In this document: one piece after another, positions 2 through 6,422 of the stretch
Position numbering within the stretch: the stretch's first letter is position 1
How the letters are laid out: the number at the start of each line of letters is the position of its first letter
IMG/VR virus record: IMGVR_UViG_3300045973_000508
Span: 1-20,320 of that record
Length of the DNA stretch: 20,320 bases
From: a virus
Reading direction: 5' to 3' (one strand)
Notes under the pieces: generated by a model
The model's database searches: none
The model's input: only the letters and a program-made list of their open reading frames with translations
What the model was told of the DNA's origin: nothing
Made by a program: the position numbers and the translations under genes

Positions 2-676
2 AACCACGACAGTTATATTTGTATGTCAACCAGATACAAAGTTGATAAATGTGGAAACCCAGGAATAGGTATTGATAAACTTGAAAGTAATGTTCAAAAT
101 TTACTCATTAATAACTTTTTCCCTTTACTCGTTAAGAATAGGAATTCAGGAAATTTGGTTAAAAGGATTGATGATATAGAAGATGAAATCACTCTTTTGA
201 ATAGAGATTTGAAATCTGAAAATAATAAGGAAAAAAGGGTGTTAGATCTGTATTTGGATGGTGATCTTGATAAAGGTATCTACAAAGAACGTTTAGAAGG
301 TATCAAAAAAGAGCAGGAAAAGATCAATACCAAAATTCAGGATTTACAGGTTGAAAAATTAAGGGTTGAAAGTATCATCAAATCAGAAAATGACCTTCAG
401 TCAATCGCCAGAACATACAGAAAAGAAGGTATAGACAGGGATACCATCAGAAAAATCATTAATCATATTGTTATTACACCTGCACCGGAAATTAATTTAT
501 GTGATAACACAAGGGATAAGGTTATAAAGGTTGATTTACATATTGGTGAACAGGTATTTGGGTTCTACATTGGTCAACGCAGTGAGAATATTAAGTTGGT
601 AAATGAACCAACAGAAAAGACCCTGAATGTATTTCAAGCAATCAATTTCGTGAACGACTATAAGGATCAAAATTAG
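2..676 (+). CDS. Large serine recombinase (phage integrase), C-terminal part
   Basis: This is the end of a large serine integrase, the enzyme that inserts and excises phage DNA at att sites. The frame is open to the left edge, so the gene starts outside the window and the ATG at 23 is an internal methionine, not the start. The visible part opens with a Y-x-C...C-G segment typical of the second half of the recombinase zinc ribbon. This is followed by 'I..LE..VQNLLINNF', then a long charged coiled coil (about residues 45-125 counted from that methionine), then a C-terminal domain with 'RDTIRKIINHIVI'. Zinc ribbon plus coiled coil is the hallmark of the large serine recombinase C-terminus; the coiled coil governs synapsis and directionality. 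The catalytic serine domain is not in view. The gene is convergent with the leftward early module. The family call is firm; whether this copy is functional cannot be judged. Confidence 0.85.
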   Translation, partial: NHDSYICMSTRYKVDKCGNPGIGIDKLESNVQNLLINNFFPLLVKNRNSGNLVKRIDDIEDEITLLNRDLKSENNKEKRVLDLYLDGDLDKGIYKERLEGIKKEQEKINTKIQDLQVEKLRVESIIKSENDLQSIARTYRKEGIDRDTIRKIINHIVITPAPEINLCDNTRDKVIKVDLHIGEQVFGFYIGQRSENIKLVNEPTEKTLNVFQAINFVNDYKDQN

Positions 677-3062: not shown

Positions 3063-3839
3063 TTATAATGAAAGAAAAATTTTAACATCCGTTTTCATCA
3101 ATTCTATTTGTTCATTATCATAATATGGTAAATCTAAATTTTGGTCCATTATTTTTACCATTTCGTTGAAGAAGGTATCAATACCTTTTTTCATTAATTT
3201 TTCTTCCCAATTGTTATTGAAATAATTTGGAAAAATTTCATTGAAATCATCCCTGAATTCTTTTAAGGTTTTTACCGGAATAGTTTCAACCGCTACCGGC
3301 ATTTTAGAACCAAAAGTAAATTCTTCAACTTCAGAAAAAATTTCCTTATGGTCCAATATTGGTCCATTAGTATTTTCTTCTTTAATATTTATTTCTTTAT
3401 TACTTGTTTCATTAGTACTTATTAGTGGGTCGAAAATAGGAATCCTACTTTCGGAAATCCTAATATTAGGATTTCCATTATTAGAAATCCTATTTTCGGA
3501 AATACTATTATCAACTATTTCGTTAATAGTCCAAAGAACACCACTTCCTTGTCCCAATACTTTTTTATTTATATACCCTAATTTTTGAAGTTTATGAAAG
3601 GAAGTATAAAAGACAGTTTTCCCGAAACCACATTCTTTTAATAAAACTGTTGCATTAATTATATAATCATCAGAATTTGAAAGAATGGCATACATCATTC
3701 CGTAATCGAAATAATTCAAATTCTTATCTAATTTCATTTTATTTGTTATGCAGGTGTAAAATGATTCGTGTTCATCCCTGTTGTAAATCGTTTTGTTTAA
3801 AAATTCATTTTTCATTTTAGTAAAATAAAAAGGGGTCAA
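3063..3839 (-). CDS. Replication initiator-like protein with N-terminal winged helix
   Basis: A 258-residue protein with the layout of phage replication initiators (lambda O or DnaD-like). Residues about 37-107 form a winged helix: 'NYFDYGMMYAILSN', then 'INATVLLKECGFGKTVFYTSFHKLQKLGYI', then a beta wing ending 'GVLWTINE'. Residues about 110-180 are a low-complexity linker encoded by repeated DNA (see the iteron entry). Residues about 190-258 are a helical C-terminal domain ('LKEFRDDFNEIFPNYFNNNWEEKL'), the usual site for helicase or loader contact. It probably binds the phage origin and recruits the host replisome, since no helicase or polymerase gene is seen. The start could be 3839 or the methionine at 3815 ('MKNEFLN'); the longer form is kept because its extra residues F-Y-F-T-K look like a natural N-terminus. 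It could instead be a transcription factor. Confidence 0.7.
   Translation of the reverse strand: MTPFYFTKMKNEFLNKTIYNRDEHESFYTCITNKMKLDKNLNYFDYGMMYAILSNSDDYIINATVLLKECGFGKTVFYTSFHKLQKLGYINKKVLGQGSGVLWTINEIVDNSISENRISNNGNPNIRISESRIPIFDPLISTNETSNKEINIKEENTNGPILDHKEIFSEVEEFTFGSKMPVAVETIPVKTLKEFRDDFNEIFPNYFNNNWEEKLMKKGIDTFFNEMVKIMDQNLDLPYYDNEQIELMKTDVKIFLSL
3431..3507. repeat. Intragenic iterons and 24-bp palindrome, candidate replication origin
   Basis: Within the linker of the initiator gene a 26-bp unit occurs twice in direct orientation (3437-3462 and 3482-3507, 23 of 26 identical, 45 bp apart, in frame). Overlapping the first copy is a perfect 24-bp palindrome (3453-3476; half-site GGAAATCCTAAT). 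A further inverted partial unit is at 3431-3447. The repeated core is TAGGATTTCC/GGAAATCCTA. Directly beside it, 3371-3420 is about 84% A+T. Iterons followed by an AT-rich segment inside the middle of the initiator gene is the arrangement of the lambda origin in gene O. Confidence 0.6.
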
Positions 3840-3849
3840 GAAATCCGCT

Positions 3850-3909
3850 GGTTCTCACGTCAGTTTCATTCTTGCCCCAAAATTCTTTTAGTAGTATATT
3901 GTGAGAACC
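3850..3909. promoter_or_regulatory. Long-range inverted repeat upstream of the initiator gene
   Basis: GGTTCTCAC (3850-3858) and its exact reverse complement GTGAGAACC (3901-3909) are 42 bp apart, just upstream of the initiator start. They could be paired operator half-sites about five helical turns apart, or a 9-bp stem in the initiator mRNA leader. Confidence 0.45.
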
Positions 3910-4036
3910 TACAATTATAAATATATCAATCCTAGCCCAAAAGTCAATCTTACTAAAAATATTTTTGATATTTAGAACTTGCCTAAATAACGGTGCGATA
4001 ATCAGCGTCTTATCCATAAATACCAATTATCTTATG

Positions 4037-5560: not shown

Positions 5561-5752
5561 ATGGAGAACAAACTAAATCAATATTACACCATCGACAAAG
5601 ACGCGTGCATAGATCAATTAAATAAATTGAACGAAGAATACTTGAAAGAAGAAAAAGAAATAATTAAACATAAAAAAAAGATAAAAGAAATAGGAAACCG
5701 CGTCTGTATTCTTCAAAGGTTATTGAATATAGATAAAGAGATCAATGATTAA
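5561..5752 (+). CDS. Small coiled-coil protein, 63 residues
   Basis: A 63-residue protein of unknown function that is almost wholly helical. Residues 15-60 have heptad-like leucine/isoleucine spacing and dense K/E charge ('LNEEYLKEEKEIIKHKKKIKEIGNRVCILQRLL'), so it probably forms a coiled-coil dimer. It sits alone between a strong promoter candidate and the structured leader of the HNH gene. The upstream terminator isolates it from the exported-protein gene. Small coiled-coil phage proteins often bind host factors, but there is no direct evidence of that here. Confidence 0.65.
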   Translation: MENKLNQYYTIDKDACIDQLNKLNEEYLKEEKEIIKHKKKIKEIGNRVCILQRLLNIDKEIND

Positions 5753-5794
5753 AAGAAAACAATAAACACTTTACATTAAATAGACATCTTCGTA

Positions 5795-5802
5795 TATTTA
5801 TA
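5795..5802 (+). promoter_or_regulatory. Candidate -7 element of the HNH gene leader
   Basis: TATTTATA, the same octamer as before the 5561 and 2424 genes, with TTA (not TTG) 21 nt upstream at 5771-5773. Transcription would start about 5808-5811, just where the first stem of the leader begins. Confidence 0.35.
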
Positions 5803-5810
5803 TATACGGT

Positions 5811-5897
5811 GGCGTCTCACATTACCCACATAAGATATTAGATTTCAAACCCTGATTATAGATACGAAGTGAGACGCGTAATTATAGTCAGGGTTTT
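5811..5897 (+). ncRNA. Structured leader with interleaved inverted repeats (candidate pseudoknot)
   Basis: Two inverted repeats interlock. Stem 1 is GCGTCTCAC (5812-5820) with GTGAGACGC (5869-5877), 9 perfect pairs. Stem 2 is AAACCCTGATTATA (5847-5860) with TATAGTCAGGGTTT (5883-5896), 14 pairs including one G-U. The order 1-2-1'-2' is that of an H-type pseudoknot with linkers of 26, 8 and 5 nt; alternatively the stems are mutually exclusive switch states. The segment contains no gene, begins at the predicted transcription start and ends 16 nt before the TTG start of the HNH gene. A cis-acting translational control element is the simplest reading, but an RNA has not been shown to exist. Confidence 0.5.
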
Positions 5898-5912
5898 GAT
5901 TTTAATATTAGA

Positions 5913-6422
5913 TTGAAAACAATAGAGTTAACACAAGGTTATTCAACAATCGTTGACGACCAAGATTATGATGAACTGATTAAGTATAGTTGGCACGCAT
6001 CAATTAAAGATGAAGGTAGAAATAAAAAAATAAGATGTTACGCGGTTGGCACATTAAAGATTGATGGTATATGGAAACATATGTTTCTTCATACTTTCAT
6101 TTTGGGTGGTGTTTATCCTGATGGTATGATAACAGACCATATCAACGGTGATACATTAGATAATAGAAGATGTAATCTAAGATTCTGTACACCATTACAA
6201 AACGCTTGGAATAGTGGTAAAAGAACTAACCCAAAAAGAACTTCACAATATAAAGGAGTTGAGTTTAATAAGTCAGGTAATAAATGGAGAGTAAGAATGA
6301 GAGTTAACGGTAAACGTATTCAAGTAGGTTCGTTCATTGACGAGAACGACGCTGGAAGATGTTATAATGAACAAGCACGTCTTTACTACGGAGAGTTCGC
6401 AAGACTGAACGTCATACAATAG
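5913..6422 (+). CDS. HNH homing endonuclease with AP2 DNA-binding domain
   Basis: A 169-residue free-standing HNH endonuclease of the kind common in phages. The N-terminus 'KTIELTQGYSTIVDDQDYDEL.KYSWHA' is the family's usual start. The HNH core holds H60 ('MFLH') and 'DHINGDTLDNRRCNLR' (D75, H76, N78, N84, N88). An AP2 domain fills residues about 112-166 ('SQYKGVEFNKSGNKWRVRMRV...GSF.DENDAGRCYN'). All expected metal- and DNA-contact residues appear intact. The start is TTG at 5913; no ATG lies upstream in frame before the stop at 5859, and the family N-terminus fits this position. Such enzymes nick or cut DNA in related phages lacking the gene and so spread themselves. The long structured leader may hold back translation, as hairpins do for some T4 homing endonucleases. 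Confidence 0.88.
   Translation: MKTIELTQGYSTIVDDQDYDELIKYSWHASIKDEGRNKKIRCYAVGTLKIDGIWKHMFLHTFILGGVYPDGMITDHINGDTLDNRRCNLRFCTPLQNAWNSGKRTNPKRTSQYKGVEFNKSGNKWRVRMRVNGKRIQVGSFIDENDAGRCYNEQARLYYGEFARLNVIQ

Follow-up and report, generated by a model that had tools for sequence, protein, structure and literature searches.

A covarying kissing-hairpin RNA in phage operon leaders, probably of Bacteroidota phages, and its possible role as a promoter-proximal terminator

Introduction

What might two long inverted repeats, interlocked with each other just ahead of a gene for an HNH endonuclease, do for a phage? The question is raised by a locus in a 20,320-nt stretch of viral DNA (IMG/VR virus record IMGVR_UViG_3300045973_000508, positions 1 to 20,320), the whole of which we call the window. 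An earlier note, made from the sequence alone, described the repeats as a pseudoknot or switch in the leader of the HNH gene, and offered among its explanations an autoregulatory site for the endonuclease. Is the structure real, does it belong to the endonuclease gene, and what could it do in a phage operon?

Results

The repeats do interlock, in the order 1-2-1'-2', at 5811-5897. They had been called perfect repeats of 9 and 14 bp, and for the shorter one, GCGTCTCAC/GTGAGACGC at 5812-5820/5869-5877, this is exact. The longer one is a helix of 15 pairs, AAACCCTGATTATAG (5847-5861) with TTATAGTCAGGGTTT (5882-5896), two of which are G-U, so that as DNA it is imperfect. Together the repeats make two hairpins whose loops pair with each other, a kissing complex, and the stems do not compete (Table 1). 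The local fold of the site has a z score of -5.6. The belief that such an arrangement is very unlikely by chance is only partly borne out: a 9-bp Watson-Crick stem interlocked with a helix of at least 14 pairs, G-U allowed, arises in 42 of 1000 dinucleotide shuffles, but in just one of 1000 when the 9-bp stem must hold at least six G/C, as it does in the window. Chance interleaving is not rare in so AT-rich a window, and the window alone would not settle whether the fold is real. The decisive evidence for the fold at 5811 is, as we read the sequences, the family of relatives described below.

The placement of the repeats in a leader, between a promoter-like box and the TTG start of the HNH gene, stands as first described. 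Overlooked at that time were hairpin A, the inner stem of hairpin B, and a second copy of the element on the minus strand.

Table 1. Features of the element in the window, and divergent elements at other loci (positions are those of the window unless a locus is named)
Feature	Position	Strand	Details and evidence
-7-like promoter box TATATTTA	5793-5800	+	12 nt 5' of kissing strand; TAnnTTTG with one change
Hairpin A	5809-5829	+	stem 5809-5812/5826-5829 (GTGG/CCAC), 13-nt loop 5813-5825; R1 alignment, family covariation
Kissing strand 1, CGTCTCAC, within loop A	5813-5820	+	repeat and loop-loop covariation
Hairpin B, terminator-like	5847-5896	+	outer stem 5847-5861/5882-5896; local fold, R1, covariation
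Inner stem of hairpin B, TACG/CGTA	5863-5866/5877-5880	+	R1, covariation
Loop of hairpin B, AAGTGAGACG	5867-5876	+	10 nt; R1, covariation
Kissing strand 2, GTGAGACG, within loop B	5869-5876	+	complement of 5813-5820, 8 bp
T-rich tail TTTTGATTTT	5894-5903	+	interrupted, weaker than most relatives'; sequence
HNH endonuclease gene, first gene 3' of the 5811 copy	5913-6422	+	TTG start at 5913; Pfam HNH_3; homologues align from residue 1
Second copy of the element	3810-3921	-	R1 77.1 bits, E 8.3e-14 (rough, by the tool's own statement); absent from training set
Kissing pair of second copy, GTTCTCAC/GTGAGAAC	3908-3901/3858-3851	-	
-7-like box of second copy, TATATTTA	3918-3925	-	9 nt 5' of kissing strand; sequence
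Probable replication initiation/DNA-binding protein gene, first gene 3' of second copy	3063-3815	-	PHROG 1456 and 270; ATG at 3815
Divergent kissing terminator	L235:3510-3640	+	GTTACGG/CCGTAAC
Divergent kissing terminator	L342:7595-7725	+	ATGGTGG/CCACCAT
Divergent kissing terminator	L273:1-125	-	
Divergent kissing terminator	L102		
Divergent kissing terminator	L147		
Divergent kissing terminator of phage FL-1	about 3675-3840 of FL-1 (L233)	+	loop pair GGGCTGAA/TTCAGCCC at about 3690, in larger hairpins, 3' of TACATTTG box; promoter-anchored scan

A scan of IMG/VR for the short stem pair, filtered for an interlocked second stem, yielded many sequences of the same plan: 92 contigs by the exact, stricter pattern, and at least 120 by looser ones. 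The model A1/R1 (R1 below) was built from 43 family sequences. The elements are about 85-95 nt long, with a loop A of 13-14 nt, a loop B of 10 nt, and conserved unpaired nucleotides in both loops and in an internal loop (UGAA/GGAU). The 5811 site, itself one of the 43 training sequences, scores 75.5 bits under R1 with an E-value of 1.8e-13, such values being rough by the tool's own statement. Both window copies have the features of the family, namely hairpin A, a terminator-like hairpin B, 8 bp of loop-loop complementarity and a -7 box upstream (R1 75-77 bits).

That the leader resembles none already described agrees with the library searched: Rfam 15 gave no match at the gathering threshold in the window and 14 relative-bearing loci, and at permissive E-values positions 5700-6000 of the window gave chance matches only, far under the cut-off. 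A self-cleaving ribozyme and a group I intron were rejected for want of an Rfam match. So was a HEARO or omega RNA of IscB-type nucleases, for the same reason and on account of the partner, a 169-aa HNH protein in which Pfam recognizes HNH_3 only. A pattern-based scan of the viral contigs for relatives of this HNH protein found none.

How well do the relatives support the fold? The earlier note held that homologous leaders keeping neither stem, or showing no covariation, would speak against it; the leaders keep both stems and covary strongly. In a MAFFT alignment, built with no reference to the fold, 92.5% of the cells are paired, 18 pairs have changed on both sides, and the covariation score is 0.539, where shuffling gives 0.156 and sliding the partners no more than 0.113. 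The model-fitted alignment raises the paired cells to 98.3%, a figure biased toward the structure by construction. All three stems covary in the family, and so does the kiss.

The kiss deserves separate treatment. Because the first patterns had fixed the kissing sequence, a new search was made in which only the inner part of hairpin B was fixed and the loop 8-mer was left free. The inner stem is present at 101 distinct sites; 91 of these have, upstream at a steady distance, a strand that matches loop B 8/8, and seven have a 7/8 match, while three look like chance; about 23 different kissing 8-mers are represented, and, the family sequences being related to each other, all these counts are of non-independent events. 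Matches that lack the inner stem mostly reach only 5/8 complementarity. Five of the seven kissing pairs have changed on both sides in an alignment made mostly of free-loop sites. So wide a range of 8-mers could not have descended from a single sequence unless pairing was under selection.

Which strand folds, and does it fold in more than one way? The paired columns hold 53 G-U against 16 A-C combinations, an excess which indicates that the folded strand is RNA of the element's own orientation. When all column pairs were ranked by mutual information, the top 18 all belonged to the one structure, 17 to the modelled stems and one to the kiss, and no antiterminator or other competing helix was among the top pairs. 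Of the two suggestions joined in the phrase "pseudoknot or switch", the pseudoknotted RNA is thus upheld, while a switch between alternative folds is not, as the stems do not compete and no alternative helix covaries. For the last reason a classical attenuator, or a transcription riboswitch with a mutually exclusive antiterminator helix, was also rejected. On the strength of these comparisons the fold is very well supported.

The second window copy, found by its match to the covariance model, shows compensatory loop changes relative to the copy at 5811. A TTG start listed at 3839 for the replication gene that follows it falls within its hairpin B. The predicted kissing energy of each window copy with itself is -11.7 and -10.2 kcal/mol, and crosswise it is about -7.3 kcal/mol. 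Each kiss therefore fits its own partner better than that of the other copy, which points to action in cis.

The consensus for the -7 element of Bacteroidota promoters is TAnnTTTG (PMC7366714). Both window boxes differ from it at the last base. The consensus itself lies upstream in 123 of 148 distinct instances of the element, 9-12 nt before the kissing strand in nearly all, and from this spacing transcripts should start at about hairpin A. At the other end, hairpin B is followed by a T-rich stretch in every one of the 148 members (at least five T in some 8 nt), and the distance from loop B to the start codon, ATG, has a median of 42 nt, with quartiles of 37-44. A stable hairpin and then a T-rich tract is the sequence mark of an intrinsic terminator, and the element has both. 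A strict terminator scan, confined to loops of 3-8 nt, did not list the window copy at 5811. What the sequences show directly is a fold with its kissing pairs, set in a leader between a promoter box and a T tract.

Such an arrangement could be read in other ways. Might the element be mainly a gene in its own right, yielding a discrete and stable small RNA (about 90 nt) from its own promoter to its own terminator, with the downstream genes served by read-through or by other promoters? Promoter box, compact body and T tail would all fit. We consider it unlikely, as a free small RNA would have no need of the tight spacing to the next start codon, and a kissing sequence that can vary so long as it matches itself makes a conserved trans-acting seed improbable. 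The predicted position at +1 and the short, fixed spacer before the ATG would also suit a 5' cap, that is, a structure that guards the mRNA against degradation, with a short A/U-rich stretch left unfolded ahead of the start codon where ribosomes can bind. Such a cap needs no alternative fold, but would leave the T-rich tail, present after the stem in 148 of 148 members, without an explanation, and we are doubtful of it.

Does the element belong to the HNH gene? At the loci examined the genes 3' of the element are mostly replication genes, encoding DnaD-like helicase loaders, primase/helicase, ParB-like proteins and DUF6291 proteins. In about six of the 66 loci the gene next to the element resembles one for a homing endonuclease; Pfam recognized four of those six at its cut-off and a fifth weakly, and gave no match for the sixth. 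The HNH gene is an incidental neighbor among others of several kinds, and the proposed autoregulation specific to a homing endonuclease was rejected, the gene contexts being mostly those of replication. Could the element then be part of a replication origin, its leader RNA acting as a primer or in an R-loop at the replication module? Its usual neighbors are indeed replication initiation genes, and it sometimes lies directly 3' of a gene resembling the DnaA helix-turn-helix. The 5811 copy, however, is followed by HNH and terminase genes, and termination accounts better for the T tail and the spacing from the promoter, so that we regard a role in the origin as highly improbable. We note that in two loci the gene just 5' of the element (L187:9616-10026 and L172:5461-5856, both plus strand) has a weak DnaA HTH-like match. 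An origin-binding protein may thus be a neighbor in some phages.

Which hosts are involved? Searches of phage collections with four sequences gave one convincing cultured phage, Flavobacterium phage FL-1, which has one canonical copy (69.6 bits) and a second, divergent kissing terminator (Table 1). FL-1 also has a stretch with tRNA-like ends and a long insert (L233:19627-19800, plus strand), for which ARAGORN reported no tRNA gene. That the hosts are probably Bacteroidota follows from the type of promoter and from this one phage. In bacterial genome contigs the exact pattern had no match. The looser one had 12 in bacterial genomes, among which the three from Bacteroidota (L369, L372 and L379) were negative with R1. 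R1 found none in 395 Bacteroidota genomes, under stricter filters and with only nine candidates per listed genome, and the one match by pattern in 296 genomes of one family, again the L369 genome, was rejected. The element looks phage-borne, and few if any prophages appear to have it. The window has a fragment at 23-676 (plus strand) that matches integrase PHROG phrog_95 (E 3.9e-9). Its phage may on that account be temperate, even though the element's family was not seen in the bacterial genomes searched.

Some contigs have, besides a canonical copy, a divergent one with another loop code, as in L235 and L342. The loop codes in the divergent set (Table 1; L235, L102, L147, L342 and L273) are GTTACGG/CCGTAAC, ATGGTGG/CCACCAT and GGGCAG/CTGCCC, and several of the divergent copies have an AGTA/GAA internal loop that resembles the loop E (sarcin-ricin) motif. 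A free scan of the window for kissing terminators was too noisy to use; a scan anchored on the promoter gave clear extra cases, along with some controls. It found 194 sites with a kiss of at least 8 in 3.2 Mb, against five in one dinucleotide shuffle, the loci having been preselected for the element, so that only the non-canonical sites are informative, some of them of chance quality.

Discussion

What, then, does the element do? The reading that we somewhat favor, as modestly probable, is that it is a conditional, or level-setting, promoter-proximal terminator in the leaders of Bacteroidota phage operons, mostly replication operons. Transcription would start at or beside hairpin A. On leaving RNA polymerase, loop B would pair with loop A over 8 bp, and hairpin B, completed just 5' of the T tract, would then end transcription as an intrinsic terminator 15-30 nt short of the first gene. 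The kiss might tune or lock this terminator, and it might also display the conserved nucleotides of the loops and internal loop (UGAA/GGAU) to a factor that permits read-through. From the sequences we infer termination by hairpin B, an effect of the kiss on its efficiency, regulation, and the read-through factor. With no conserved competing helix, regulation would be by a bound factor or by folding kinetics, not by a two-state attenuator.

Several observations would count against a terminator. The T tract of the window copy is interrupted, no antiterminator covaries, both window boxes are off the consensus, and four variants (L280, L311, L324 and L325) have no hairpin A. In these four the kissing strand lies directly 3' of the promoter, and is still an exact match to loop B.

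One might also think of an RNA like put, a folded leader that would bind the polymerase transcribing it and make it resist later terminators. In keeping with this analogy are the pair of hairpins close to an operon promoter, the presence of one copy on either of two divergent operons of the window, and unpaired nucleotides that are conserved in the internal loop as well as in loops A and B. Hairpin B, unlike the known put sites, bears a terminator tail, and we think a put-like function quite improbable.

If the element is indeed a conditional terminator, a broader and rather tentative proposal can be made from the divergent copies. Bacteroidota phages may share a class of "kissing terminators", each of them a terminator close to its promoter, with its loop gripped by a hairpin that lies upstream. 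With several per phage, each with a self-matching code, there could be an independent RNA gate for each operon, which the kinetics of folding, or a factor of phage or host origin, would open.

Among the bacteria of guts and waters, Bacteroidota are a dominant phylum. How their phages control operons is little known, and the element offers a concrete way into this question, being widespread, of unusual tertiary design, and present in one or more copies per phage. A kiss that varies freely and nearly always matches amounts to many natural compensatory mutants for the effects of a loop contact on termination, and the cultured phage FL-1 makes the element testable. It would add an RNA family that is absent from Rfam 15. 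We found no report of such an element in the literature searched, with preprints and most subscription journals outside its scope. Terminator, kissing loops and leader RNA are each of a known kind; what seems new is their combination as a widespread, covarying phage leader.

How does the element compare with known systems? With the intrinsic terminators and attenuators of 5' leaders it shares a GC-containing hairpin and then a T tract, between a promoter and the first gene. It differs in that the terminator loop is paired to that of another hairpin lying upstream, the two loops covarying strongly, and in the lack of a competing antiterminator. The put RNA of HK022 is a two-hairpin phage RNA found near early promoters. 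To our knowledge it has no terminator tail, and we know of no kissing between its hairpins; compared by description only, the element is like put in having two hairpins near a promoter, and differs in its tail and its kiss. In ColE1 RNAI/RNAII and similar antisense pairs, a fully paired loop-loop helix of 7-8 bp forms between two hairpins. In the element the two loops belong to a single transcript, and their pairing seems to be cis-acting. The HMP-PP (thiS) riboswitch is an aptamer embedded in a terminator (PMC6478431), and is like the element in having conserved unpaired nucleotides inside an otherwise ordinary terminator stem; the element differs in sequence and fold, has no Rfam match, and is found in phage replication operons. 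Finally, ANTAR targets have two hairpins with hexanucleotide loops bearing A1 and G4, and exclude the terminator (PMC3369931). The dual hairpins of ANTAR-binding leaders, placed before or overlapping a terminator, recall the element, but in the latter, loops of about 14 and 10 nt are paired to one another and the terminator is present as well, which sets it apart from that class.
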